The notes beneath the pieces were generated by a model. That model had not been told where the DNA came from. It saw nothing but the letters and a program-made list of their open reading frames with translations, and ran no database searches. 64,000 bases of DNA from Eunapius fragilis (Eukaryota; Porifera; Demospongiae; Spongillida; Spongillidae): the NCBI GenBank assembly GCA_963681505.1, contig OY811981.1, forward strand, positions 5,487,727-5,551,726, in the 5' to 3' direction. Numbering within the stretch: position 1 is the first letter of the stretch; each line of letters starts with the position of its first letter. The translations under genes were made by a program, and so were the position numbers. Below, piece by piece: positions 4,910 through 60,477 of this stretch.

Positions 4910-5480
4910 TACTGCAGTCTCGTACCCAGATCCGCGTACGCCACAGCAGAGGATATCAGGAACTACGTTATACACGAATTCGTGAATATCATTTTAAAAA
5001 CGCGACTGGCGTATAACTCGCGTACCAAGAAACGGATAGTGTAGCCTTTGTTGCTATCGAACCAGAAAGCAATGACGGTCATTTTAATATTTTGTCCAGT
5101 CTTTAAACTGTTTGCTTTTTAAAAAAAACTCGTGCTTCTCTTCGTCCCCAGGCCAATTCTTCTCCGTCATCATAATTCTCGAGTATACATGTAACTCGGG
5201 ATAGAAATGGTTTTAAAGAGCGCAAATCATACCAATCGCTTTGGAAGGATATCTTCAGGTATCAGATAAAGCATATAACTAATGCACGTAATCATTACGT
5301 AATATGGAGTGTTGTATTTAACCGTTCCCATGGCGACATACACGTTTTAGAATTATGCAGCGTTATAAGCAGGTGGGATTTCATTTGATCGCAGTTTGTT
5401 TTTGACTAGCGAAGTTGTTTTTTTTTTTTATACCTTCACGTCAATAAAAGAGGAGAGCTAAAAGACGAGAGAAATACCTC
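4910..5480 (+). pseudogene. Leader copy G1 of the 'MPSRQ / PEKK-repeat' family
   Basis: This stretch matches 7,960-8,480 closely: a shared TAACTCGCGTACCAAGAAAC, then GCTATCGAACCAGAA, a TCTCCGTC trinucleotide zone, ACCAATCGCTT, and finally GCGAAGTTGTT just before a leader read as PSRQ. The family's start codon reads MPSRQ in better copies, but here the ATG is lost and a stop follows PSRQ. It looks like a dispersed promoter plus first exon of an expanded gene family. Other copies in the window end in repeats of the NSYESDPERKKAYE type. Non-functional here. Confidence 0.55.
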
Positions 5481-5567
5481 CAATGTCGAGACGAGTTAGA
5501 GTTCTCCCGCGTTCGGTACAATGCTGATCCCAAACTAAAGCGGGCGCCTGCTCGTGACGGTAATTGA

Positions 5568-5599
<32 letters not shown>

Positions 5600-5656
5600 A
5601 TTGCCAGTATTCGCTAAAATCATCGCCAATAAAATTAAGAATGATAATAAAAGAAT

Positions 5657-5954
5657 AGAGGAAACAAGTAAAGAAAAACATTCTCTAACTAGAAAGTTGG
5701 TGGGATATAGGAATTGGAGGCAAAGGTGGTGTAAAAAGGAGGGTAACAAGGTTTTGAGAAAAGGAAAATGGGACAAAAATCCTACATTTAGCACTTCTTT
5801 TGGTTCTGTTACATTTACATGTGCTAAATATAGGATTTTTGTCTCATTTTCCTTTTCTCAAAACCTTGTTCCCCTCCCTTTTACACCACCTTTGCCTCCA
5901 ATTCCTATATCCCACCAACTTTCTCGTTAGAGAACGTTTTTCGTTTCTTGTATT
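5657..5954. mobile_element. F1 fold-back MITE, copy 1
   Basis: Near-perfect palindrome with arms of about 140 bp around a short loop near 5,800-5,820. The left arm begins GGAAACAAGTAAAGAAAAAC and includes GGTGGTGTAAAAAGGAGG; the right arm is its reverse complement. No coding capacity. It belongs to a five-copy family in this window (see 8,486, 30,833, 38,455 and 54,040). Confidence 0.8.
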
Positions 5955-6409
5955 ATATATGTTCGTTGGATTGAGTTTGGCCCAGTTTATTATACGGTTA
6001 TTAATGATGTACTGAATTGATTTTACCAGCCAGCTGGTTAATGAATGTATAACTTGCAATCTCATAATTGTAATCCTGGACGCTTCTACACGCTTCCGTT
6101 GAAGCGTGCATGCCGATAGTACGACGTCGATCATGGGGCCACGGCAATGATCGATCGCGAACAAAGCGAGAGCGATGGATGCGTATGCTCTGTAACGGAA
6201 CTGCAAGTCTGCAAGGGCCGGGGAAGTGGTTGGGGTTCCCCCTCCCTCAAACTGAAGTATGAAATCATATTCCCCCGCCCCTTCCAATCTTGTTTTCACT
6301 CTGGACAGGGGCGCCTCCCTCCCCCCCGCATAGCGCGGAAGCGTCAATGCCACACGAAAAACTCATACATGCAGATGCACGATTCAAACATTATCTCTAT
6401 GAATATTAA
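5955..6409. other. Intergenic, no gene seen
   Basis: No supported feature. It is somewhat more GC-rich than the surroundings, with poly-C and poly-G patches near 6,310-6,430. Confidence 0.4.
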
Positions 6410-7645
6410 TTAGTTGGGCGAATTTCCCCCCCTTGCCCCATCAAGCGGATGCTGGAAAGAGCTGAATAAGCTTATAAAGGCCGGAGCTGGCAGGGTTTCC
6501 TGAGCATATTCACAATCCATTTTCACCATATATGGTATTATCTGGTGAAAATGAATTGTGAATATGCCCCTCTCCATATGCCACTGCCTGGAAAGCAATT
6601 TTCCTCTAAGTACACACCGTCCATTGTTTAAAATGGCGCCAAGCGCAAACAGGTCATGTGGCTTAAATTTCAAGTCGCATTGGTCGTGCATGTGATCGCA
6701 TAACCTGCACACCTCATTACATGTAAGGAGGAGTGCATTTGGGAAGTATGAGGGGGCTAATCTGTGTTAGCATAACTTAGCAAATAATACTTCCGGTTGA
6801 CAGGTCATTCACGATGCTGCGATTGCACGTTCTATATATAGTATCACGTCATATTTTTAACTAACTTGATAATCTGGCGTAGTCTTGCTGTTTACAATGG
6901 ATCGTGGCAGGATGCTTGTTTGGACAGCGTACGTTTAAACACCTTGTATCTTTCCAATGCGGACAAACAATAGAGCTGTAGCGAGATTGTTCCCAGTGAC
7001 GAAAGGGGCACTGCTAAACAAGAAAAGTGTAATAACATTTCAGGTGCATACCCCCTCCCACCACCACCAACACCATGACCATGCAGTGCGAACGTTAAGG
7101 GGATTGACGTAAAAGGAAATATAACGATATGTGCTGTCCGGTATACACATTATGTATTCATATAGTACCACGGCTGTGCTTTCGAAGACTGTTTCGACAA
7201 CGAAATATACATGTATATATATAAATTATATATATATATATATATATATGCATGTGCACGTTCCGATAATTAATTACGATGGACCACTAACCTTTACGGC
7301 GGGGCAACGTCCTTTGGACATGAAGGAACGACAGTCCGTTAACTCCTTTGGTGGCCTGTGGTCGGGAGACTTATTTCGATCTAAAGCAGTTCCGAGGTCT
7401 TTATATCTCGACGTTCTTATTGGTAATGAACGTATCATATGGTTGTTCATTTCTATTGCGGCACTCTGTGCATCTCTTTCCAAGGAAAAGTTGACGTAGC
7501 CATACCCTTCTGATATTCGTTCCTTATTTCGGATCACTCTGCAGCTGGCTACATTCCCATATTTGCTGAAATGCTCTTTCAAATCTCTCTCGTCAGCATC
7601 TACATCCAAATTACGAACACGCACAGGAAACGTGCCGGTGGCCAT
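6410..7645 (-). CDS. RRM protein with a probable CCCH zinc finger
   Basis: The first exon, 7645-7292 (ATG start, phase 0), encodes one RNA recognition motif. RNP2 reads VRVRNLD near residues 8-14 and RNP1 reads EGYGYVNF near residues 46-53. It ends in 'CRSFMSKGRCPAVK' at a GTTAGT donor. A downstream acceptor at 6713 would join 'VCRLCDHMHDQC', completing a CX8CX5C...H pattern like a CCCH finger, and run to a stop at 6410-6412. The RRM is secure. The second exon is less so, because its 3' half crosses a short palindrome at 6,504-6,567 and is not obviously protein-like. RRM plus CCCH proteins usually act in RNA processing. I cannot name an orthologue. Confidence 0.55.
6504..6567. repeat. Short perfect-arm palindrome
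   Basis: GCATATTCACAATCCATTTT and its near reverse complement form about 25-bp arms with a short loop. It could be a tiny fold-back element or a hairpin within the 3' part of the RRM gene. Confidence 0.6.
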
Positions 7646-7959
7646 ATAGTCTAACGGAGCTCAGTGCCCTCAGCATCGGGCACTTTTATCTTCACCGGAA
7701 ATCCGGCCGGCGGAAGACACTGAAGTGAGGGAAATATATTGGGGGTTCCCCGCGAAATAACATAATTATCTGGAACCCCCTGGTGGGTCGAGGGACATAC
7801 CAATGTAACCATGGCAACTAGCAAATAAATACTCTCTCAGGAAACTAGTATAAACACCGCAGGCAGAATGAGAGGAATGTCAACTGCAATCCAAATTCTG
7901 GTAAATGGAATAGCAGCTGCTGCTCGGAACTACAGTAGTAGTTCCTAATTGACCCGCTA

Positions 7960-8480
7960 CCCGCCTATGTAACTCGCGTACCAAGAAACGGATAGTGTAG
8001 CTCTTTGTTGCTATCGAACCAGAAGACAAAGACGGTCATTTTAATCTTTTGTTCCAGTGTTATAACTGCTTGCTTGGGGGGGAAGGGGGGGAAAAAAAAA
8101 AAAAAAAAAAAAAAACTCTTCTTTCCCCTCGTTCCCAGGCCAATTCTTCTCCGTCGTCGTCGTCGTCGTCGTCTTCTTCTCCCCCGAGTACAACTCGGTA
8201 TAGGAATGTTTTTAAAGAGCGCAAGTTATACCAATCGCTTAGAATCTCCTGGAAGGACATCTTCAGGTATCATGCAGATATATGAATAAAGCATAAAACT
8301 GATTACGTATCATTACGTTATATGGAGTGCTATATTTAACCGTTCCCATGGCGTTCCCGTGGCGACATTTTAGCAGCGTAGGTGGGATTTCATTTGAGCA
8401 CAGTATTGTTCACCACTTTTGGCTAGCGAAGTTGTTTTCTTCAAAAAGCCTTCGCGTCAACAAAAGAGGAGAGATACCTC
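7960..8480 (+). pseudogene. Leader copy G2 of the 'MPSRQ / PEKK-repeat' family
   Basis: Second copy of the dispersed leader module. It shares with G1 the TAACTCGCGTACCAAGAAAC start, a (GTC)n run at about 8,153-8,173 and the GCGAAGTTGTT motif. It ends in a leader read as PSRQQKRRDT; the ATG position is changed to AAG. It directly abuts an F1 fold-back element. G1 and its neighbouring F1 copy have the same layout, so module plus MITE may have been duplicated together. Confidence 0.55.
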
Positions 8481-8485
8481 CAAAA

Positions 8486-8799
8486 AATAGAGGAAACAAG
8501 TAAAGAAAAACATTCTCTAACGAGAAAGTTGGTAGGATATTATAGGAATTGGAGGCAAAGGTGGTGTAAAAAGGAAGGGAACAAGGTTTTGGGAAAAGAA
8601 AAATGAGACAAGAATCCTATATTTAGCACATGTATAAATGTAACGGAACCAAAAGAAGTGCTAAAGGTAGGATTTTTGTCTCATTTTTCTTTTCCCAAAA
8701 CCTTGTTCCCTTCCTTTTTACACCACCTTTGCCTCCAATTCCTATATCCCACCAACTTTCTCGTTAGAGAATGTTTTTCTTTACTTGTTTCCTCTATTG
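8486..8799. mobile_element. F1 fold-back MITE, copy 2
   Basis: Almost perfect palindrome. The left end is AATAGAGGAAACAAGTAAAG and the right end is CTTTACTTGTTTCCTCTATT. Arms are about 145 bp and there is no coding capacity. This is the cleanest copy of the family in the window. Confidence 0.85.
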
Positions 8800-9129
8800 G
8801 AAAAAAGTGCTATAACTTTACCGTGCAAAAACACCTAGATCGGGATAGCGGACATCTTTGAAAGGTGTTTGGACATTCAATGTAGTGTATAACCTTGTAT
8901 TGTACAAAATCTATCGATGCGAAGTTTTTCGCCCGGAATTCGGTAGGCCGTACATGTAGTGTGTATGTATGCGATGCGCATGCTCAGTGATGACTACTTA
9001 ATTTTATTCTTCAGACTCAGAGTTTAAAATGAATCACTATTCATTAATTCAACTGGCTGACAGTCCAAGAAACTGAGGCGCATGCAGAATCTCACAATCA
9101 CAAAGGATGGTTAGAAGGCTGAATGGCTT
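8800..9129. other. No feature seen
   Basis: No exon, palindrome or duplicated segment noticed between the F1 element and the first retrotransposon. Confidence 0.4.
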
Positions 9130-10600
9130 ACATTGTTACATTGTGTGCAGTACCCTGGCCTCTGCAATGGGTCGCGGATCTGAAGCATCAATTTATCCAA
9201 ATGTGAGGTGTTCTGTGGATCTAACACTACAATGTGTCCGGATTCAATATTAATGAAAGCCTTCCACACTCCTAACCTCGATATCCTTGGTGCTCCTATT
9301 AGTGACTAGTATATCCACTGCACCAAATTCATTGCCTCTAAGCGGGTTGAGGCCTTGAAGTTGCTGTCCAGGCTTCAGGATGTTGCCCTCATTGACCCCC
9401 AGGTGGCTTTCCACCCTACTTCGTGTGTGTGGTAGTTTTTGTACGTTGGCTCACATCACTCGGTCCACTCCCCCCAGCTTATCCTCTGACCCTTTGCAGC
9501 TATTTGACATGGCAGTGAAGGAATGTTTTGCCACATGTTCTGCTTTGGACCTCACTCGAGCATGCCTGGCAGCAAGCACAGCGGGGTCTGAGGTATGGAG
9601 GTTTGGGGTTGCATTCTTTGGCTCTGCATGCCTGTGCTGCGTTCATTGCTTCTATTAGCTCCTCGAGTTTTGTAGATGTTTATAACCAAACATCTAAAGC
9701 ACCTAGTGTCTACTCAAGACACTCTTCTCATTGGCTGTACTGTAGACACACCCATACCACAAGAGGTCCTGTCCTTCAAAATTGACACTGAGCAGTTTAG
9801 AGCTCTCTTTGATTCCTCATCTCCTGCTAACAAGGCTCACCTCCACTCAGCATCAGCCCCTCACGCATCCTCTTGGCTTTCAGTGATGCCTAGTGTAGAG
9901 CTTGGTTTACATCTCGACCCCCATGAGTTCTGTGTAGGCATTAGGTGGTGGTTGGGATTGGATATTTCCAGAGGGCTGTCCTGTTCTCTTTGTCCTAACA
10001 CAGCATTAGATCTCCTGGGTCACCATGTTGTTACATGTAAGAGGGTGGAGATGTGGTCACACGACATAATCAACTTCGAGATGTCTTTGTTGATTTCTGT
10101 CACCAGGCCCATCTTGGTGTTCCCGTTGAAGTTGGTAGCAACTTGACACCTGATGGTTCTCGATCCCGCCCAGCTGATGTTTTGGTTCGTGATTGGATTA
10201 CTGGCAGATTTGCTGCCTTTGATTCCTCTCTGTTGCCTCACTTAATCAAGCATGCATCACATCAGGCTTTGCAGCTCTATCAGCAGAAACCTGCAAGCAC
10301 AAGGCTAATGATCCCAAATATATGCAGTGAGCTAGGGTGGGTGTGCATCCCTCTGGCAGTCGAGACCTATGAGAATTGGAGGAAGGAGGCTAGGGACACA
10401 TTTTCCCATCTAGCAACCCTGCTTGCCATTGAGTCTCCAAAATCAAAGAGCAGCTTTGTGTATGAGATATACAGCAGGCTTAACCTCTCCTTGCCCAGGT
10501 TTATTGTGAGAGCAATTATGGCCCGGACTCTGGTATCTTAATTTATTTTATCGGTAGGTGTATATTCCATTATTATGATTATTAATAATTTTTTTGGAAA
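9130..10600 (+). mobile_element. RLE-type non-LTR retrotransposon, 5'-truncated (copy L1)
   Basis: The 3' part of a LINE. It starts in the RT thumb region ('INLSKCE', then 'FHTPNLDILGAPIS') and runs to a stop near 10,541. After the RT comes a Cys/His cluster ('CSLCPNTALDLLGHH..TC'), the RHN motif, then 'RPADVLV' and the region that in sister copies reads AFDISVTSPL, the restriction-like endonuclease core. This order (RT, CCHC, RHN, RPAD..D) fits elements with a restriction-like endonuclease such as the R2/NeSL groups, not APE-type LINEs. Several frameshifts and stops are present (for example around 9,308 and 9,600-9,680), so the copy is dead. It lies tail to tail with copy L2. Confidence 0.75.
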
Positions 10601-46800: not shown

Positions 46801-47644
46801 TCTTTAATTATTAGAATACATGAAATACATAAGATACACCTGAAAAGGTAAACTCCATGTACAACCTAACTATTAACACTTTAGCTACAAGGAAAACAAT
46901 ACATGTACACTAAAGATGGACTGGGCAAAGGCCTCTTGCCAGGATGGCTCTTGCCACAGCTCTCACCAAGCAGATGTTTAGGCGGCCATATATGTCAGCC
47001 AGAACTCTGGACTTGGGGCAGGAAAGATGGATTGCTAAATAGGTAGCCAGTCTTGAGAACAAGTGTTGGGCCTCCTTCCCCCAGTTACCGTATGTCTCAA
47101 CTGCCATTGGTATACACATCCATCCCTATTCACGACACTTTGGGTCATTGGCAGCATGCTTCCTAGTTTCAGCAGACAGAGCTGCTACACCTGCAATTCT
47201 ACTTGAGTCTTTCAAGGAGACTGGAGTGAGGGGAGAAGTGACTGTGATGTCTAGGGCAGCAGGTTGGCCTCTCTCCCAACCCTCCACAAGGACATCAGCT
47301 GGACGGGAGTGATTGATGTCACGACACATACCATGACCCGCTTCCACCCTGACAGACAGGTGTGCCTTGCAACATAAATCTGCAATGATGTCACGCAATT
47401 TGTTGTGTCGGATGACTGTGTCACCTCCATGTCTACAGGACACAGCATGGTGACTAAGGGAGTCAAGAGCGACCCCTAGACAAAATGGGCACACTGAGGC
47501 AACTGAAGTGTCCAGACCCAGCCACCATCTGACAGCAGTTTGGAATTCCGGTGAGTGTAGATGCAGATTTAGGTCAACAGAGGAAGCAGCCGAGAGCCAC
47601 GCACTGGCATGGAGGGCCAACCAAAGCTGATAATAGCCGAGCCT

Positions 47645-47648
47645 TATT
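47645..47648. repeat. Target-site duplication, left copy
   Basis: TATT next to the left TIR, matching 57,638-57,641. If the TIR is taken one base shorter on the right, the duplication is 5 bp (TTATT). Confidence 0.75.
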
Positions 47649-47680
47649 AACCACTTCCAATCTCAAGTGAGAATTTCCAA
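47649..47680 (+). repeat. Left terminal inverted repeat
   Basis: AACCACTTCCAATCTCAAGT then GAGAATTTCCAA. In the next 300 bp the word ATGTGCAT or its reverse complement recurs (about 47,709, 47,785, 47,911), a possible subterminal binding site. Confidence 0.85.
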
Positions 47681-47947
47681 ATTCTGATTGAATTAAGAAA
47701 ATTGTTCAAAATGTGCATAAAATCAACCTTTTTTCTGCATATTATGTGAGATTTTTTCACCTGATGCAAGAATTGTGCTATTTTATGCACATTTAGTGTA
47801 CAAATCATGATATATGTCAAATATCTATTTTTTCTGTTAATTTGGTAAAACAGCTGTTTTAGGCAGATTAAAATGTGCACTTGCATTAAATTGTGAATAT
47901 CATAGGGTTTGTGCATAACATGTTGCCTTTAATGTTCAGTTAAGTAA

Positions 47948-50900
47948 TTATACAAGTGTACAATTGGAATATAATGCCTTCAAGTCAGTGATTAATTCTT
48001 TAGTGAGTCGGTTGGATTTGCTAATGGAAATTGGTCGTAGTACTGCATCTTCACTGACTTCTTCAACCTGCTGTATCCCTCTTATCTTCCAGGGTACCCA
48101 GTTGGCTGTGTAGCGTCCTACCCACCAGCCAATTGTTAGCTTTTTCCCATCTATCACAATAACTTCAGCTATTTGAGGTTCTTCATCTGCATATTTTTTT
48201 AACTTCAGTGCAACAAAGCCTCCATGTTGTACAGAAGCAAGCTGTGATACAGGTACTGAATCAGGTTTAACAGTTGTCTCATTAAGATGGGTGGAAGGTA
48301 GAATTTGTAGTGGTACCAGAGGGAGGGCTGATCTGCTGCTAGTTTTGCAGGGCTTCTTTTTGCCGCAGTATACCTATAAGCATAATACATGATTATAATA
48401 TAAAAGGTCTGATGATAAAATTTAGTACTTCTTACTGCAGTGAGATACATATACACTGGGTTTGGTGCATCTGAAATTTCAAATTATAGTGAGTGATGTT
48501 GTGGGATATTTTTAACAGCTGCGATATGCAGTTTGGTACTTCTGAAATTTCAAATACTATGATTTTTGTGACATTCTTGTTTGCACTATAGACCACAAAA
48601 TAATCATGCTATCTAATCATTAATGGTTATTATGTTACATTGTAACGTATCCTTTGTATTCTTCTATGTATCCTTATAATCATTAATAGTGTGTTGACCT
48701 ACATACTTTTTATAATCTTAATAAATATGTATTATTATTGAATAACATCTATATTAAAAACCCGTATTATTAGAATTAAGGCTAAGTGCTCTTTCTGTCA
48801 TTGTATTTTTATTGATACATCATATTTACACTGCAGGATTTACCTCAGGAATTGATTCAGTATTTTCAATGTGACGCTTTAACAACTTGTCTGGCAATGA
48901 TGGCTGCCCTGTTGATTGGATTGTGACTGATGTATTTTCAATGATGTCCTCTATTTTTGAAAGCAACCATTGTTCAGGCTCAAGAGCAGGAGATTCAAAT
49001 GATGCTCTAAGTTCTTCAATAAAGTCTGTCCACCATTTTCTGTCAACTTCATCAAGACACTGATACTTTAAAATGGCTCCAGACAATGCCTCAAGATCAA
49101 TTTTTAATGGATTGGCTGCTACGTTTTTTGGACACCCAACTGGCAAAGTCTGTGCATTAATAGAGGATATATTAAGCAGATAAGAATTGCAAAATTGCCA
49201 GCAGGTACCTTAAGTAGCTTCAAACCTGGTTGACCCTCTGGCTCCCATTTATCTTCATTCCACCGTTTGTAATGCATTTCAGTACTGATGGGCAGTCTGC
49301 TACCTTTATTAAACTTAAAAATATGGGGATGAGAATGATTGTATAGCTGGTCTGTGCATGGAAGTAACCATGATTTAACATCACTGATACTGCTCAGAAC
49401 AGTAGCACACCCCACAGTTTTATTTGCCTCCTTGCAGCCCTGCAACAAAGCTAACGTATTGGAGATAACTGTTACTATCGCATAAATAAATCAAAATACA
49501 TTACCAGGAACAGTATGTGCATTATGCTTCCTAAGCCACTTGCCAAAATTTCCAAACATCGCATCTACATCTTCATGTGTGTGTCCTACCATCAAAATTC
49601 CAAGCTCTACCTTATAAAGAATAAAGATACTGGTGAACAAAATTAATTATATCAAAATGTACTTACATCTTCAAATATGCCCTTGTGCACAAGGAATGAT
49701 AGGAAAGACAAAACACACCGGTTTTTATTCTCTCTTGCAGTATTGTCCAACTGCAAAAACAACTTTCTAGGTAATGGCTGTGATTTCTTTGTCAAGGTAT
49801 TGAAATGATCAAAAATGACCTAATGAAATATAAATGAAATATAAATTTTTAAAATATATTGTTATAATTAAATGACTAGGATATTACTTGGCATAGCACA
49901 TGAATGGTCAGGTTTGGGTCATGTGGCCACTGCATGAAGTCAAGAAACACATATGACTGATGCCCATGCACAATGCATCCAGTAAGATGTGTTCTGAAAT
50001 GCCACAAGTTGCTATCTGACTTTTGCATTCGCTTGCAGTGAGGCAGATTAGTACTATTTTGATCCATTCCATCAATGATGACAGACATAATACTGGTATT
50101 GGTTTCTGCATGTTCACGTATTTGATGGTATCGCCTCCTTTGATCCCTGTTGTTTTTATTGGTTACAATAGAAAAAATAAATAAAAAAACTTAAAACTTA
50201 CATTTGAAGATCGTTATGTTGATGAAGTAATGTGCTAAGTTGCTGTATTTTTGCAGCATCCATAGTTTTTTCTTTTTCTGCTTTTACCATGGTGCAAATA
50301 TCACATTTAGTGAAGCGATTCTCCTGTTAAACAGAATAAATTTATTTAGTAATCTCTACCACACAGGCAATTATTTACAATCATAACTTACTGACGGGAT
50401 AGTAACATGGCTAAATCTTTTCTCCCACAATAGAAAGAACTGTGATTTACTGATAATCTGTTCCTTATGACGATATTGGAAATCAGACACCATTCTCTGG
50501 TATATGGAAAATTTTGATAAAAAGCTGGGTAAATGCATTGTCATCCTGTGAGGCATGTAATCTCCAACTAAATCAAAGTATTGGCGCATCCATTCCAAAG
50601 CCTCAAAAGTACGCTGAAGTGGCTGTTTTGGAACACGATGGACTTGGATTGTTCCATTAAGGTACAATTGTCGAATTCTATAAAAAACTGATGTTGGTAC
50701 ACCTAAGGCTTCTATCCAAATCTTCTGACAGACTGTTTTCCCTCCTATCATGTATGTAGTTTCATTCATGCTGGAATGAGTTCTGAAATAGTCTAACATC
50801 CATTGTCGTTTTGCTGACTTAGTGAGTTGAGTAAAGTAGTGATGATAACTCAAAACGTCAAATTCGAGTAATTGATGGACTTTTACACCACATTTTGCAC

Positions 50901-52246
50901 TGCAGCCATCAAAAGACAGTACATCAGCAAAGCTCCAGCATGCCGGGTCACCAAACCAATCTATAGATACATTATAACACAACTCATAAACACATAAGCT
51001 AACATAGAATTTACTTGCATCAGTGAATCTGTGATTTCAATAGGAACATACAAAATGCAGCAAGGAGAAATATTTATACATATATTATAATGCAATTGCC
51101 TGCATTCACAGAAGATTGAAGTTATAAATGAAATGAATAAACTAATAGAGCTATATTAATGCAATGCATCACTCTTTATGTACCACACAGTTTGATCATA
51201 TTTTTCAAAAGATGTTAACACAAATTATGGAAACGTGGCATAGTAATCATGATGGCTTACCAGATTTAACATCAATGTGCTCCTGGTTTGAACTTTTATG
51301 CTCTTGGTTTGAACTTTTATGCTCCAGCTTTGTGCTTTTCATAGGTGTTCCACTTTCAGAACCTTGGCCACTCGTGATAAAAAATGATTTTGAGCATTTT
51401 AATGTTGCATCTGTAAAATTAAAATGTACACATTACATGTACACATAATATGTACATATACACGCAAGTACTAAGTACAATACAATATGACTCTTTACGT
51501 ACCACAGATTGACCGTATTTTAAAGCATGTTAAAATTCATGAGTAAGGGGTTAACACTAACACTACTAGTGGGTAGGCGGGAGGGCTTTATGGAACTAGT
51601 GTGTAGGTGGGAGGGTGTGATGGTATTAGTCTGTAGGTACTTGTGTGTAGGTGGGTGGGTGGGATGGTGCTTGTGTGTAGATGGGAGGGTGCAATGATAC
51701 TAGTGGGGTGCAATGGTCCAAATAAATAATAGTAGACAGCATACAGACAATGGTAAATATGGACAATTGTTAAATTTAAACACTAGATACAGCGTGCTCA
51801 AGCGCTGTTTTATGGTGCTGCAGGTCTAGAAATAATTTCATGTCTCATACATGTCAATCTCAAAAGAATATAGATAACTGAAATACTGTCATGCGTGTAT
51901 GTATATTTAATTTAGCCCTCCAGGGTGTCATGCCTACGGCTATGTACGACTTACTACTGTCTGAATTAATAAATGCCCCTACTAGAACTCAACAATTGAT
52001 ATCCTTACCCAATAAATTGTCCCTCGAACTTGCAATGGAACGTAGCAATGAGTTAGTTGGTAAAGAGGATTCGCGTTCGCTGGATGTAGAAATCAGCTCG
52101 GAATCAGTATCGGAGCAGTCGCTGAAATTAACTCCCGTCAATGAAGAGACTGAACTAGCGCTAGTGCAATCGCTAAAACTGACACTGCAAGAAGCATCAC
52201 TAGAACTCTCACAATCCGTAAACGTTAAAAACTCTTCTTCTGTCAT
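47948..52246 (-). CDS. DUF7869-like, DDE/RNase-H-like protein, putative transposase (10 exons, 856 aa)
   Basis: Exons 52246-52009, 51410-51261, 50960-50392, 50323-50202, 50146-49888, 49819-49667, 49610-49505, 49450-49209, 49149-48844 and 48373-47948 (2,571 bp, 857 codons with stop). All junctions are GT...AG and every phase fits. Residues 1-80 are Ser/Asp-rich. Exon 3 has a Cys cluster (GCSAKCGVKV) and 'GGKTVCQKIWIEALGV'. Exon 4 has 'RFTKCDICTMVK'. The core reads 'SVIIDGMDQNSTNLPHC' (about residue 382), 'LQLDNTARENKN' (about 467) and 'VGHTHEDVDAMF' (about 504). These D..D..E/D blocks have the order and spacing of an RNase-H-fold nuclease and match my memory of the DUF7869 family. The C-terminus has a 'GWWVGRYTANWVPWKI' module that could be chromo- or SH3-like. 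No repeats or stops break it. The transposase role is inference from context and fold. Confidence 0.85.
51560..51715. repeat. Minisatellite in intron 1 of the putative transposase gene
   Basis: Units like TAGTGTGTAGGTGGGAGGGT, the same family and orientation as the large array at 52,935-54,260 in the other gene. Confidence 0.8.
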
Positions 52247-52369
52247 CTTCAATAGTGCGCTTAGCTGCTGTATTGCATTATTAAGTCCAGCTGTAATACA
52301 AGGCGCGTTTGCGCATGCGCTTAATGATACCAGCTGCTCATTCTTTAAGTGTTTAGCTCTGGGAGAACA
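52247..52369. promoter_or_regulatory. Divergent promoter of the two transposon genes
   Basis: Only 123 bp separate the two start codons. TGCGCATGCGC at 52,310-52,320 is a perfect NRF1-type palindrome (GCGCATGCGC), a common element of metazoan bidirectional, TATA-less promoters. No TATA box is obvious. Co-expression of both genes is the natural inference. Confidence 0.65.
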
Positions 52370-55300
52370 ATGGCTGTTATTACTTCATGGCATTTGAAGG
52401 TTGACAATGATACCAGAATTTATTTGATGAAGGGAGAAGAAAAAATGAAAGCGGAAGGCAACTACAAGGATGGAAAGCGACCGTACATCGGACCCGTTAC
52501 AGATGTCCGACACCACAAAACATCCGATAAAACGTATCTTCTGGTAAGAGCAATACTCTTCCTAATTGAAGTATCATTATTATATTTTCACAGTTCAAAA
52601 CTGTGAAAGACACGGTCCGTCCCAGACCTTTGCTTGCTGACAATTTTAATGCGTCAGCAAACGATTTCTGTGAGTTGTTTCAAAGAGCAGGTTCAGCAAG
52701 TCACTTCACGCAAATATGGAAAACAAAAGTAACGCCACATATGACCTCTGATGGGTACTTCTACGATGCTGGAATAGGTAAGGCATCAAAAGTATGTGTA
52801 CTAATAGATCAAAGAACCTTAATAATATATTATCCAGGACCGAGCAATAAAAGGGTTGGAGCATCACAAAATGAGGGGAAAAGCAAAGTTCCAGGTAAAA
52901 CGCGGTAATTTTGACACGCACATTTACGAATTCTAGGTGGGGAGGGTAAATGGGTTTGATGATACTAGTGTGTAGGTGGGAGGGTGTGATGGTACTGGTG
53001 TAGGAGGGTAGTGTGTAGGTGGAGGGTGTGATGGTTCTAGTGTGTAGGTGGGATGGTGTGATTGTACTAGTGTGTAGGTGGGAGGGTGTGATGGTACTAG
53101 TGTGGGAGGGTAGTGTGTAGGTGGGAGGGTGTGATGGTACTAGTGTGTAGGTGGGATGGTGGGATGATACTAGTGTGGGATGGTGTGATGATACTAGTGT
53201 GGGAGGGTAGTGTGTAGGTGGGAGGGTGGGAAGATGTGATGGTACTAGTGTGTTAGTGGGAGGGGGTATGGTACTAGTGTATAGGTGGGAGGGTATGATG
53301 GTGATAGTGTTTAGGTGGGAGGGTGTGATGGTACTAGTGTGTAGGTGGGATAGTGTAATGGTACTAGTGTAGGGTGTGATGGTACTAGTGATACTAGTGT
53401 GGGAAGGTACAGTGTAGGTGGGAGAGTGGGAAGGTGTGATAGTAATAGTGTGTAAGTGGGAGGGGGTGATGGTACTAGTAGATGGGAGGATGTGATGGTA
53501 CTAGTGTATAGGTGGGGTACTAGTGTGTTGGTGGGAGGGTGTGATGGTACTAGTGTAGGGTGTGATGGTACTAGTGTGTAGGTGGGATGGTGCAATGATA
53601 CTAGTGTGGGAGGGTAGTGTGTAGGTGAGAGGGTGGGAAGGTGTGATGGTACTAGTGTGCAAGTGGGAGGGTGTGATGGTACTAGTGTAGGGTGTGATGG
53701 TACTAGTGTGTAGGTGGGATGGTGCAATGATACTAGTGTGGGAGGGTAGTGTGTAGGTGAGAGGGTGGGAAGGTGTGATGGTACTAGTGTGCAAGTGGGA
53801 GGGGGTGATGGTCTAATGTGTAGATGGGAGGGCATGATGGTACTAGTGTATAGGTGGGAGGGTGTGATGGTGATAGTTTGTAGGTGAGGGTGTGATGGTA
53901 CTAGTGCTTTGAGAGAGTGTGATGGTACTAGTGTGTAGATGGGAGGTGCGATAGTACTAGTGTGTAGGTAGGAGGTGTAAGGTACTAGTGTGTAGATAGG
54001 AGGTGTGATGGTACTAGTGTGTGGGTGGGAGGGTGTAAGAGAAAACAATTCTCTTAAAGAGAAAGTTCGTGGGATTTAGGATTTGAAGGCATAGGTGGTG
54101 TAAGAAGGAATGGAACAACAAAAAATGAGAAAGAATAATTAGCACTTCATTTGATTCAGTTGCATTGTTTTCTTTTCCCAAAACCTTGTTCCCTTTTCTT
54201 GTAGGTGGGAGGGTGTGTATGATAGTGGGGGGTGATGGTACTAGTGTGTATGGTGAGGGATGTTTTGTTGCAATTATCATGCATGAGTGTATGGTGTTAC
54301 AATCAGCTTGTATGAAGAGCATGGTGCAACTATAAGCATTCATCATTGCTCGCACTAGCCTTGTGTGTGCACCAGTCTAGTGTACATAAAGATTAAGCCT
54401 GCTGCATTATCCTATCCTCCACTAGACACATTATTAGAAGGTGCACCAAAACCCAAGAGACAAAAAACTGTTGAGTCTTCAAGTGCAGAATCCTCCTCTT
54501 TATCATGCCCAAGCTCCTCCATGCTGTGTGTTGAAAGTGAGGCAGCATACAAGGATATAGACTCATGCTTCATAGGTCTGTTTAATAAACTTAGCATAAT
54601 AAACAACTATGCCATATTATTCCCACTATTTATAGTATCTTATTTTTCTGTCTATTAGGGAACTTTAACATTCCCGTCTCTTGTCTGTTATCACCTGGCA
54701 AAGAGTACTTGATAAGAGAGGCGGACGAAAAGTTTATTGAGTGCCTGAAGCATGAAATGGTACAGAACAGAACGTGTGATGTTGCCCCAATTGTCGTAAC
54801 AGTGCGATTGTCGGATGATGAGCAATTTGACATCAAGCATACCGAAGCGTACACCTATGATACTATTGGTGGTAATCATTCGAGGATCGCTCTGCAACAG
54901 TTGATCACTGAAAACAAGGAGCTGGCAAAGGATCCAACGTTTTCGTCCCGCCGTGTCTCAGTTTATGGGAGATTGTCTGCTGAGCAAGCTCAGCATCTTG
55001 CACATAGGCATAATCGTGCTACCGAATTTACCAGTAAGATGAACACGCAAGACAAGGTATACTGGAAATTCCGTATAACCTTTCAATGCATGAACATATA
55101 ATGAAATCAATGATTGCGGTATTTCATGTTTTAATTTTATCCTCATGGTTTCATATTTATCGTACATTATTAAAAAAAAATTAACTTAATTTTAAAAAAA
55201 TAAAAAAAGATTGCGGTAGACGATAGTCGAAATTTGTGTCAGCATAGTAACATTTATTTATCATATTGCTTGTTGTTATCATTACCCCCATATATAGGTA

Positions 55301-57362
55301 CATTTGTGCAGGTTAAGGCTATACACGATTGCAGGAAGATCAGTTGGTGATGAGCCACCTGAAAAGACGAATAAATGGAGGGAATCATGCGCAACGACTT
55401 TAATGATGACGGTAAATCTTAATCATTGCCAATAGAGTACTTTGATTATTCTGGTTATGAGATTCATATAACTAAATCTTTATAGTAAGAATGTAACACC
55501 CTGTTTTGTTGAGTTTATGCATATATGGAACAGTGTCGATCATAAAGTTATTAGTATAAAAATTCAACGTTACATTAATGTGTTTATCTTCACAATCTGA
55601 GGCCCATTATAGTTTTCCTTACAAACTAGGTTGACATCACTAGGCACTGTCCCACATTTTTTGAATCATTTACTTTCATTTACAGAAAAAGCAGTTGGAC
55701 GAGAATATGATTTATGCATTAGCATCATTAAGTAATGAGAATTATAAACTTTACCAAACAATTGTATATCGATGTGAAAAGGGTAAAGACAAGAAGACCA
55801 AGAAAAGCTCCTTAGGGCTGTCCTGCAACAAAACGGACTGCAAAGGCAGTAATTTTCGTGGTTTACGTGGCTTAACTGAGGACGAAATGACAGATATGCT
55901 ACAAAAGTGTGCAAATGGTGAAATCAGTCTCCAAAAAATTAATTTGGAATGCTCGATTTTAAAGAAAATCAAAACAATCAAAGAAGCGTTTATGGGTCGA
56001 GTGGGATGCGTAAATTGGCTCCAAACAGTGGAACAGTATGGACATTTTGCTGATGAAAACATTCTCAGGGACTTGTTTATAGAGCTCAAATTTTCTCCTA
56101 ATGTACCTGCTGCATTCAATGAATATTGTGCTAAGGCACTAAAGTAAGTGAATTTGTGTTAAATGAATTGCAATGACGAATATTTTATAAATACAGTTCT
56201 AAGCTGGTGGGAACAAAATCATCTGAAATTGATGCGAGAACTGCAGCTGTATGGTCAGAGGATCGAACATCTCTAACACTGCTAATTCCTCAGACGATTA
56301 CCCTACTCTCCTTTGAAGACATTAAGAAGAATGTCAGACCATTTATTGGATGTGCTCTGACTTTGGTGAAAGATGGGTTGGAAAAAGAAGACGTAAGTTA
56401 TTCTAGCATCATGTGTGCAATATGACTACTTTCTAACCTCAATGTTATTTGTATTTAGACAATTACTGTCATACGTGGTATTAAAGCAATCAATGCTGCC
56501 GCAAATTTGTCGTGCTATACCATTGTCATCACTAAAGTATCACCCGCACGTGCCTGCGAACTATGTGAACTACTTCAAGGATCACAGTTCATAGTGCAAA
56601 TGGCATACTATACACATAATCAAGTTGCAAGTGGTATTTATAACATTATTGCATGGAGTACTCTGGTTACAATTGGTTATTGTTATCCATTCTTCAGGCC
56701 CCCTTTTCACTACAGAAGTAGAGCCTTTTGTAGTCGCTGCTTCAGATCACACCTGTACCAAGATCAAAAGAAGTAATTTTTTTTCAGTCACTGAAGAACA
56801 ATTCTATGAAGAAGTAATTAGTTCCTTTACTTCTGAAGGTGACTACATCCTCACAAACAACACCAGTCCATGTAAGTTACTTTCAATGCAGCATAAAATT
56901 GCATTTGTAATGCAAAATAACTTGTATTATAATGATACTGATGCTTTAATGAAATGTCAGTAAATTGGAATGCAGCTTAAAATCTAGCATACTAAACAAC
57001 ACTAGGCTTTTGAAATTTCAGAAAGAACAAAATTATATATCAATATATACATACCATGGAAACTTGTAAAATATTAAATAAAACAAACCACACTTTGCCA
57101 CATCTGAAATTTCAAGACCACCAAATTGGCATTGCACCTTAATATCATGATTGGGTTATAATATAAAATATAGATTGAGCGCAAGTTCAATTCAAACAAC
57201 TTAAAAAATATTCACTTCTTTGTTTCAGGCATTCCAGTCAGTGCTGGAAAAAAGAAAAGACACGTCATTGTAGCAAATGAAAACGGAGCCGAATCACTCC
57301 TTCAAATAAGCACAAGCAATGATGACGTGGAAGAAACTCCAAATGATAGTATTGAGTATTGA
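52370..57362 (+). CDS. ParB-like domain protein of the transposon (11 exons, 752 aa)
   Basis: Exons 52370-52543, 52594-52777, 52838-52894, 54381-54575, 54659-55056, 55298-55411, 55686-56143, 56197-56392, 56459-56633, 56698-56871 and 57229-57362 (2,259 bp). Phases agree at all ten junctions and the frame is intact. Residues about 155-190 are basic then Ser-rich (PKPKRQK, a likely nuclear signal). Residues about 204-350 resemble the ParB/Srx fold: 'NIPVSCLLSPGKEYLIR', 'APIVVTVRLSD', 'YDTIGGNHSRIALQQL' (in the place of ParB's GxxR loop), then 'LAHRHNRATEF'. Next comes a Cys-bearing segment (YRCEK...LSCNKTDCKG) and a C-terminal part with 'GPLFTTEVEPFVV' and 'SEGDYILTNN', faintly like the last part of a DNA methylase but without a DPPY-type motif. 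Prokaryotic ParB-methylase fusions exist, so an origin from one is possible but unproven. Role: perhaps DNA binding or nicking with the transposase. Confidence 0.8.
52935..54260. repeat. Large minisatellite in intron 3 of the ParB-like gene
   Basis: Roughly 30-bp units TACTAGTGTGTAGGTGGGAG + GGTGTGATGG repeated about 40 times with variants, giving an intron of 1,486 bp where most others are 50-250 bp. It is interrupted near its end by an F1 MITE remnant. Long reverse frames across it (SHPHTSTITPP-like) are artefacts. Confidence 0.9.
54040..54205. mobile_element. F1 fold-back MITE, copy 5 (shortened)
   Basis: AATTCTCTTAAAGAGAAAGT, GGCATAGGTGGTGTAAGAAG and CCCAAAACCTTGTTCCCTTT match the F1 arms, but most of the right arm is missing. 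It lies inside the minisatellite, with GTAGGTGGGAGGGTGTG on the right side and GTGGGTGGGAGGGTGTAA on the left. Confidence 0.65.
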
Positions 57363-57605
57363 CTGAGTATTGACTGGTGATATGCTAGGATATATATAGG
57401 CAAAGAAAATTGTACTCCATTGGTTTCATGAGACAATATTAATCATATATGAAAGACAGTAATTAATAGTGACAAAGTGAAATTGTATAACCTCGCAGAT
57501 CATTATTGAAATATTTCCTCAATTCATTAAAATTACGTAATTCAGATCACCCATTTGCAAGTTAGTATAGCAATTAATCATCTTTGTCAAGAAAAAAATT
57601 TGGAA

Positions 57606-57637
57606 TTGGAAATTCTCACTTCAGATTGGAAGTGGTT
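57606..57637 (-). repeat. Right terminal inverted repeat
   Basis: Reverse complement AACCACTTCCAATCTGAAGT then GAGAATTTCCAA, one mismatch to the left TIR. Confidence 0.85.
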
Positions 57638-57641
57638 TATT
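57638..57641. repeat. Target-site duplication, right copy
   Basis: TATT directly after the right TIR, before TGCTGG of the host LINE. Confidence 0.75.
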
Positions 57642-60477
57642 TGCTGGAGAGGAGGACATCAAAAGTGATTCAAAGAGATGTCTGTCCAACTTCTGGGACA
57701 AGGATCGCTGGCGAGGCTGATCAGTAAGAACTGACTCGATGGTAACTGCATCAGAATGTGAGACCTGACTGTTGAATGTGATTAAAGATTGCTGAAGATG
57801 GAGGTTATTGGTATTGCCTACACCTGAGGCTGAAAATGGTGCCAGGAATGCTGAGCTAGAGTGGAGTGCAAGGGAGCGGAGTCCAAGCCCACCAAAGGAG
57901 AGGCTTAGTTGGGCTTGTTGCCAGGCGGCATCCGTGACATCTGCAGCAAGACAGGCTGAGATGCAGGATCTGGTCTCCCCATCAAAGGCACATAGAGCCT
58001 CAGAGGATAGACTAGGGGGAGTGGTTCTCGAAATGTGGACTAGCTTGCAGAAACCTCCACAAATTCGAAGCAACGAGATCGCTACGTGGAGGTCAGAGTC
58101 AGCCAACTCTAACAGGACAGACAGCAGCTTCTTGGCTTGAGCACACCTCTCTGCAATAAAGTGAGCACAGAAAAGATTGTCCCCGATTGGAGCTCCAAGG
58201 ATATCTACATTTGGAAGGCATGAAGATTTTACCACTGATGGGAAAGAGGACTTGATTGTGGGACTGAAGAGTTCACATTTGGCTAGGTTGATGGAAAGTC
58301 CAAGGTCGGGACCCATTTCTTCTATTAGCTCCAACGCATGCAACACTGCTGTGTGATTACTGGCCAATACTCCATCATCCAAATACCAGGTTTGAAGAAT
58401 TAGGTTGAGGCATCCATCATATGCATCTCTACTAGAAACTAATTTGTGAAGCACTAGGGCAAACAACATGGGTCCAAGAGGGTCACCTTGTTGGACCCCT
58501 GTCTGTGAGCTCACACAGCCTAAGGGGTGCCACAGTAAGGGAGGTGAGCCATAACTCCAAGCAACCCATGGGAGCAATTCTGGGAAAAAGTTGCCACTTC
58601 ATCTAGCACTGCTTGTCTTGATACTGAATTGAAGGCATTGTTCATGTCTACTTTAAAGACAGCAAAATTGGCATCATTCCAATTTTCATCCATGCAACTT
58701 CTGAGGCTGTGTATAATTTTTTCTGCTCCTGCCCTGGTGGCAACTCCTAATTGTAAAGGTTGAAAAAAGTTTGAGACCTTTTCCTTGATTAGAGCACAGA
58801 TACATTTGCCAGTAAGCCTTTGCAGGGTTTCCCCAACCACAATTGGCCTTATATTTGGGGGGCAGCCTTCCTTGAACTTATTCAAAGCAATCAGATTTCC
58901 TCCTGCTAAATATTTAGAGACTGTGGGAGGAGGCTTCCCAGAAGCAAGCAAGTTGATAACCTCTCTGAGGGAGGCACAGATTGGGGTGGGAAGGGCAGTG
59001 GACGATACATCCAACAGGTGTTGGACACGAAGGCCTGAAGGACCTGCTCCAGTATCCTTTGGGAAGGATCTTAGGACTGAGAGAATGTTGAAGTTAGAGC
59101 CAAGTGATACAGGCTCCTGGGTGATCTCTGGAATTGAAGAAAGTTCAGAAGCCGGGTGTTTAGACAGCAATAAGTTTCATTATTTGGAGCCAGACCTTCC
59201 GATGTGCATGAGTATTTTGCAAGCCTTTCCCAACATACCAGCTTGACCATATGAGACTGCCAAGTCAATATGACGCTTGTGACGCTTGTCAGTGTTGGAT
59301 AGGTTACTTCAGTGTTGACCTTGTAACACCTGTGCACGATTCTTTGCCATCTCCCAGAGGGTGACCACGTTGTTATCGACCCACATATTGCAGAGAGAGT
59401 CCACTGGGGTCAATCTGTCATGCCTTCCATTCCGCTTTGTTGATGGAAGGGTACATTTTGGGAGCATAAGGAGTTTTAACCAGGGCTCTTCATTGTTGCC
59501 CCGTAAAATACCCTTCAGAGTGAAAGACAGAGCTCTGGAGAAAGCAGGTCGAGCTTTGGATGGGATGAATCTTAGTGTGGGGTGGTAGAGCTGACAGACT
59601 TCATCGAACGAAGGAAGACTTTGATTGGAATTAGATGATGAGGGAGACAGGTTGGATTGTACTGGTGGGGGATGCTGTGGGTTTGCTTTACATTTACATG
59701 AGTGAGATGATTGTCTTGAGACAGATACTATTTGAAGGCATTGTTGGCAGATGTAGGAGTTTTGTTCTAACAGCCATGCACTAGGAATTTCCCCTCCAAA
59801 AACCCCTTGTGCATGCAAGGTCATGTGTGAGTGCCACATGTTTGGAGCTACTAGGTGATGGCAGCCTACCACAATGCAAGGGTTCCTACCTCTATGGGGG
59901 CCGCTTGTCCTGGTATTGATTGTGGTGTTGGTTAGCTGATCCTCAAGGGACGTGTGACTATGATCCTCCATGATTTTTTGGCTTGGGGTGAAGGTAATTC
60001 GATGGTTTGTCTAGTCGTGGTGCTAGTACATGAGGCGTGTACTGCAGTGCGGTCTCTGGCGGCAGCTGCTGGGAGAGCAGTGCTAATGAAGGATGCAGCT
60101 GTCGAGGATTTGGGAGTGAAGGGAGGGTTGGTAGCTGCAGGGTGGCTGAAGTGCTGGGCGAATCGAAGTGTGGTTGTCGCCTATTGGTTAGTGGCGGGGG
60201 AGAACAGGTCATTGCTTCGCGTGGGGCATGAGCGGCTCTCGCGGTGGGGGGCCGATGTGGACGCGCATTGCCATTGGGGAGCTCCCGCTGCTGGGAATTA
60301 AGAAACTCGGGGGAGGGTGACGAGGGAAGGGGTTCTGAACACGGTGTCAGGGGTAATGACTCAGGTGATGAAGGCTGTGAAGGTCTCGATGCGGGTGGCT
60401 GAGATTGAGCTTGTGATGACTTTGTGAAAGGGTTTGTGCACTTACCTTGCCTTCCGGGTAACAATTATTTTTAATAA

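Follow-up and report, generated by a model that had tools for sequence, protein, structure and literature searches.

What is the 9,989-bp segment at positions 47649..57637 of the 64,000-nucleotide stretch of Eunapius fragilis contig OY811981.1 analyzed here (the window), and how did it come to interrupt a long interspersed nuclear element (LINE)? A preliminary description had taken it for an intact two-gene DNA transposon of an unrecognised superfamily. We find that the segment is a real, recently mobile DNA transposon; the first part of that description is thus borne out, by further copies, their ends, target-site duplications, and uninterrupted sites. The second part is not supported as stated, as the traits of the element fit published accounts of the Sola superfamily and its gene pair fits one Sola element, Sola1-1_Ec32. 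Taken as a whole, our reading, to which we give a probability of roughly 0.68, is of an autonomous cut-and-paste transposon, most likely Sola1-like, in which one gene (gene A) would encode a transposase with three catalytic aspartates (DDD) and the other (gene B) would have a role in self-recognition.

The left terminal inverted repeat (TIR; 47649..47680, forward strand) starts with AACCACTTCCAATCTCAAG, and the right one (57606..57637, reverse strand) is its inverted match. Over the outer 32 bases, the two ends are inverted-identical at 31, in agreement with the TIRs of about 32 bp and one mismatch first reported. The best match obtained from 2000 random anchors in the window, each compared at 168 offsets about 10 kb away, was 23 of 32, and this control, together with the copy number, rules out a chance repeat as the source of the TIRs. 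TATT stands immediately outside both ends (47645..47648 and 57638..57641). Beyond it lie the two halves of the interrupted LINE, both on the reverse strand, the upstream half (57642..59971) with open reading frames (ORFs) and with uninterrupted copies elsewhere and the downstream half at 47126..47648. No Rfam family matches anywhere in the window at gathering thresholds.

When the flanks are joined and one TATT is removed, continuous LINE DNA results. A 200-base query from the joined flanks, run against the sponge's own genome (219 Mb, 24 contigs), gave 30 matches. Nineteen are other LINE copies that span the junction with at least 173 of the 200 query bases, two are the window locus itself, and nine are shorter (seven cross the junction and two do not). 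Two of the 19 spanning copies were aligned base by base, and both read GCCTTATTCGCTGG, with TATT once, so that the target site is exact and the duplication is 4 bp. A 5-bp TTATT duplication, which had been offered as an alternative, is ruled out by these two copies and by the other copies of the element, which fit 4 bp. It had also been proposed that removing the segment restores the LINE reading frame exactly. This holds for the DNA at the junction and for a few residues around it but not for the full frame, which is restored only locally because the downstream half of the window LINE bears an independent 4-nt insertion, about 26–28 nt from the junction and absent from both aligned copies. 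The insertion (near 47617–47622, beside the left end) may be the footprint of an old excision or may simply reflect decay.

The element is also not alone in its genome. The left 120 bp has 16 matches, including the window locus, of which 12 are left ends and four are the 41-bp terminal part of right ends; the right 120 bp likewise has 16, among them one match to a left-end terminus and one that extends over 43 bp only. Left and right ends stand in matching orientation at nine places. Four of these are full-length (9,989 to 10,062 bp), another four are shorter, and the ninth, at about 19.6 kb, presumably contains an insertion; unpaired left ends and unpaired right ends are present as well. Over element bases 1–1620 and about 5453–9989, the stretches compared, the three other full-length copies (C19, C4, and C1) are 99.3–99.9% identical to the one in the window, except for one C19 stretch that includes a minisatellite and is 96.1% identical, with many gaps (the matching region is 99.3% identical in C4 and 99.7% in C1). 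Given such near-identity, it is realistic to regard the element as a candidate working system. The preliminary description had proposed a search for further copies with differing flanks, short duplications, and both genes, and all of these were found.

Seven of the nine paired copies keep their outermost bases at both ends. Four of the seven have exact 4-bp duplications (TATT, TATA, TTGC, and TGTA) and three have none (C19, C13, and C1:8.38 Mb), in a count that leaves out the two paired copies with eroded ends and a foldback structure on C6. A second family of three copies (C9, C23, and C2), with 61% identity in its best stretch of gene A, is flanked by TTTA, TTAA, and AGAA, and a 3,028-bp element on C5, which represents a third type, by TTAT. 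Over all three types, eight of 11 complete copies thus have an exact 4-bp duplication, the eight sequences all differ, and 28 of their 32 bases are A or T. The families have ends of the form AACC[A/T]CTTCC in common. The end pattern AACCWCTTCCAATYTSA, at one mismatch or fewer, occurs 55 times in the genome versus 16 times for the pattern read backwards; among 21 such sites that were read, 13 look like element ends and eight do not (four simple repeats and four without the rest of the repeat).

Two further structures may be mentioned beside these copies. The one on C6 (G000:C6:4135948-4136754) measures 807 bp and consists of two left ends in inverted orientation; it is flanked on either side by TATA, with one additional base pair, and is likely a foldback non-autonomous derivative. 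The right ends at G000:C13:3868273 and G000:C1:7056631 have an identical 20-base outer flank, which suggests a duplicated segment or a chimeric end; the C13 copy is one of those without a target duplication.

The two genes within these ends are arranged head to head, with a 123-bp spacer (52247..52369) between their start codons that presumably holds both promoters. Both gene models were spliced by hand from the sequence alone. In these models all 19 introns are GT-AG, the frame is kept, and no internal stop occurs, and re-splicing (10 plus 11 exons) again yields the two divergent intron-rich genes with 19 in-frame junctions proposed before. Gene A (47948..52246, reverse strand) would encode 854 aa in 10 exons (52246-52009, 51410-51261, 50960-50392, 50323-50202, 50146-49888, 49819-49667, 49610-49500, 49439-49209, 49149-48844, and 48373-47948). 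Its sole significant Pfam match is PF25273 (DUF7869; E = 2.1e-57), the family to which it had first been likened. An RNase H-like fold is predicted for a relative, and the candidate catalytic residues Asp-385, Asp-471, and Asp-513 align with Asp in 59, 57, and 60 of 60 relatives, respectively. The DDE/D-type transposase already suspected thus finds support in a conserved Asp triad and a predicted fold. On these grounds gene A very probably encodes a transposase, and DUF7869 is very probably a DDD transposase domain, whose catalytic activity we infer.

Among 120 listed relatives of DUF7869 are proteins from bivalves, a liverwort, and a fern, with no flowering plant named; the 18 named mollusc relatives all come from bivalves. 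In viral contigs, no DUF7869 relative was confirmed among 170 pattern stretches. A full-text literature search, with subscription journals mostly outside its reach, found no mention of DUF7869. One DUF7869 protein, P0004 of Acropora palmata, has His in place of the second catalytic Asp and is possibly an inactive or domesticated copy.

Gene B (52370..57362, forward strand) would encode 737 aa in 11 exons (52370-52543, 52594-52777, 52838-52894, 54426-54575, 54659-55056, 55298-55411, 55686-56143, 56197-56392, 56459-56633, 56698-56871, and 57229-57362). The minisatellite lies in its third intron (52966..54036; about 36 copies of a unit of about 30 bp), and because C19 diverges most from the window in this stretch, the array may vary between copies. 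Gene B has no match in Pfam (E up to 1; for three family members, none at E up to 10) and none in PDB sequences or phage records, and a single gene B protein as query finds no relatives at E = 1e-3. A profile of the own-genome gene B families reached 19 relatives, one of them named Ephydatia muelleri and another tagged Em0007g452a, which is taken as E. muelleri too. In the predicted structure of a relative, the core has a ParB-type alpha/beta fold (ParB CTPase domain/sulfiredoxin). The label ParB-like is thus upheld by a predicted structure of a relative and not by sequence profiles. The putative core corresponds to exon 5 (54659..55056), which reads ...TIGGNHSRIALQQL...LAHRHNRATEF... and is placed by alignment, a match in ferns, and the predicted structure.

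Does the pair recur beyond this family? Searches of the own genome, which score best candidates only, gave at least 98 exon-level matches for gene B and at least 103 for gene A. Outside the main family there are at least 10 gene A loci, and six of 10 have a head-to-head gene B on the opposite strand within about 7 kb (C2:4.44, C9:9.40, C23:1.04, C4:0.70, C9:3.17, and C12:2.01 Mb). At the other four, no gene B was seen among the best candidates scored, and several gene B loci have no gene A among the matches listed; given the scoring of best candidates only, these absences are weak.

A scan of prokaryotic genome contigs gave 13 loci with DUF7869 relatives, eight of them (L097-L103 and L105) on contigs of CAKZGI01, a metagenome-assembled genome (MAG) filed as Trichormus sp. 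The L100 transposase is 54% identical to protein P0064 of the fern Ceratopteris richardii over 865 aligned residues, and because of this likeness we read the eight loci as DNA of the host fern, presumably Azolla, from which we take the sample to have come. Fern transposon contigs binned in a cyanobacterial MAG of a reference genome set are thus likely host contamination. All five fern loci with at least 3.8 kb of upstream sequence carry a divergent ORF that the profile of sponge gene B picks out from 311 ORFs at E = 4e-16 to 1e-14; the other three have less than 1.3 kb upstream. By BLASTP, four of these ORFs are about 30% identical to sponge gene B over 124–164 aa, and the fifth is 24% identical over 299. 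L107, one of the five loci from other MAGs, has 5 kb upstream with no gene B match. The recurrence of the head-to-head pair in ferns makes the pairing look ancient rather than accidental. Synonymous differences in gene B of sponge and fern are 0.68–1.01 (saturated) versus nonsynonymous differences of 0.07–0.31 (0.68–0.90 and 0.07–0.23 in ferns alone), and gene B looks to be under constraint in both lineages.

The fern copies bear on the ends and on the partner protein as well. In L105, 34-bp inverted repeats (94%) surround both genes, and the transposase frame is broken into three ORFs; target duplications were found neither there nor in a second copy, L100 with L115, whose right end was placed by eye. 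Judged by eye, the fern gene B ORF extends beyond apparent introns to the motifs DIPYGF and DLFSGTG...GTTLACAL, which we take to resemble those of N6A/N4C methyltransferases; in Pfam this tail has a weak UPF0020 match only (E = 0.13–0.19). Sponge gene B has no Pfam match to a methyltransferase, and its C-terminal tail scores 14.8 by hhalign against the fern tail; of 30 shuffled controls, at least 10 score higher, the best reaching 21.2. A hidden methyltransferase in the sponge tail, plausible by eye, was dropped on this comparison.

How might such an element move? As suggested by the fold, the triad, and the duplications, the gene A transposase would bind the AACCACTTCC ends, synapse and excise the element, and insert it where the target has been cut with a 4-bp stagger, which would give the 4-bp duplications in AT-rich DNA. 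Gene B could encode a ParB-like clamp or an NTP-binding DNA-binding protein whose target is the element itself; loaded on element DNA, it might assemble or protect the transposing complex or keep the element unsilenced, and in ferns, it may also methylate the element. What gene B does is inferred, as are end binding, catalysis, and membership in Sola.

Two other accounts can be set against this scheme. In one, gene B was picked up as a passenger and contributes neither to transposition nor to the persistence of the element. Nothing shows that gene B is needed, and no partner was detected at four of the 10 gene A loci that lie outside the main family. But those absences count for little, for the reason given above, and both the constraint on gene B in sponge and fern and the head-to-head arrangement in five fern loci speak for a function, so that we regard a passenger as unlikely. 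In the other, two neighboring host genes happen to lie between chance repeats. In the annotations of many animals, DUF7869 proteins do stand as ordinary uncharacterized genes, but the several near-identical copies with different flanks, the duplications, and the precise uninterrupted sites refute this account, which keeps practically no probability.

To which superfamily does the element belong? Sola elements are described as having a DDD transposase, 4-bp duplications, and TIRs of 11–1124 bp and as uncommon in flowering plants (PMC10741241). They are mostly 2–9 kb, with some above 15 kb (PMC10741241, PMC12477816). Sola2 has AT-rich 4-bp duplications (PMC3627910, on Fanzor), and among the molluscs studied Sola is confined to bivalves (PMC10294476). 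In Sola1-1_Ec32 of the brown alga Ectocarpus, a gene that combines ParB-like and DNA-methyltransferase parts lies on the opposite strand from the transposase (PMC12477816). The exact 4-bp duplications in eight of 11 copies, the DDD triad, the TIR of 31/32 bp, the opposite-strand ParB-like gene, and the bivalve host range of the relatives all fit, and Sola (Sola1-like) is thus the probable home of the element, the likeness being to published descriptions rather than by transposase homology. Alternatively, DUF7869 elements could form a distinct unnamed superfamily, like Sola through convergence or through exchange of accessory genes. Pfam lists DUF7869 as a domain of unknown function, the literature searched makes no mention of it, and similar ParB-type proteins are reported from other algal transposons (PMC12477816). 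As the duplications, triad, TIR length, element size, host range, and gene order all agree with Sola, we consider a separate superfamily the less likely of the two.

What is new here is the animal version with a ParB partner, the conservation of the pair between sponge and fern, and DUF7869 as a probable DDD transposase. The literature search, with the reach stated above, found no description of the gene pair in an animal among the papers listed. A widespread Pfam domain of unknown function thus gains a very probable one, and many genes of animals, liverworts, and ferns that are labeled "uncharacterized" are in consequence probably transposons or their derivatives. The DUF7869 transposase is accompanied by a bacterial-type ParB-like protein both in ferns and in an animal. 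This makes it a testable proposition that eukaryotes use a ParB clamp in DNA transposition or to counter silencing. More tentatively, and at less than even odds, the two may form an ancient two-component lineage that predates the plant-animal split, with a ParB partner functional in transposition or self-marking. The methyltransferase half would then have been kept in ferns, and also in brown algae provided that the Ectocarpus Sola1 gene encodes the same protein, and sponges would have lost it or changed it beyond recognition; such a lineage might merit separate superfamily rank.

Harbinger elements combine a transposase with a second DNA-binding protein, and both are needed in known cases. 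The sponge element is likewise a two-gene cut-and-paste transposon with a putative second DNA-binding protein, but its proteins are of other families (gene A is significant only to DUF7869), and its duplications are of 4 bp, against 3 bp in Harbinger (PMC12477816). ParB/Noc chromosome-segregation CTPases and sulfiredoxin are like the gene B core in predicted fold, but gene B has no sequence-level match to them and is set in a eukaryotic transposon. Fern DUF7869 elements differ in having the transposase in one open frame (L100 and L102) and a partner that extends into methyltransferase-like motifs; they resemble the sponge element in the DUF7869 transposase, the divergent ParB-like gene, and ends that start with AAC. 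Sola1-1_Ec32 is larger (21.5 kb versus about 10 kb) and has the methyltransferase that is not recognisable in the sponge partner, but with Sola it has in common 4-bp duplications, a DDD transposase, TIRs, and a ParB-like gene on the opposite strand, the combination that the sponge element also presents.
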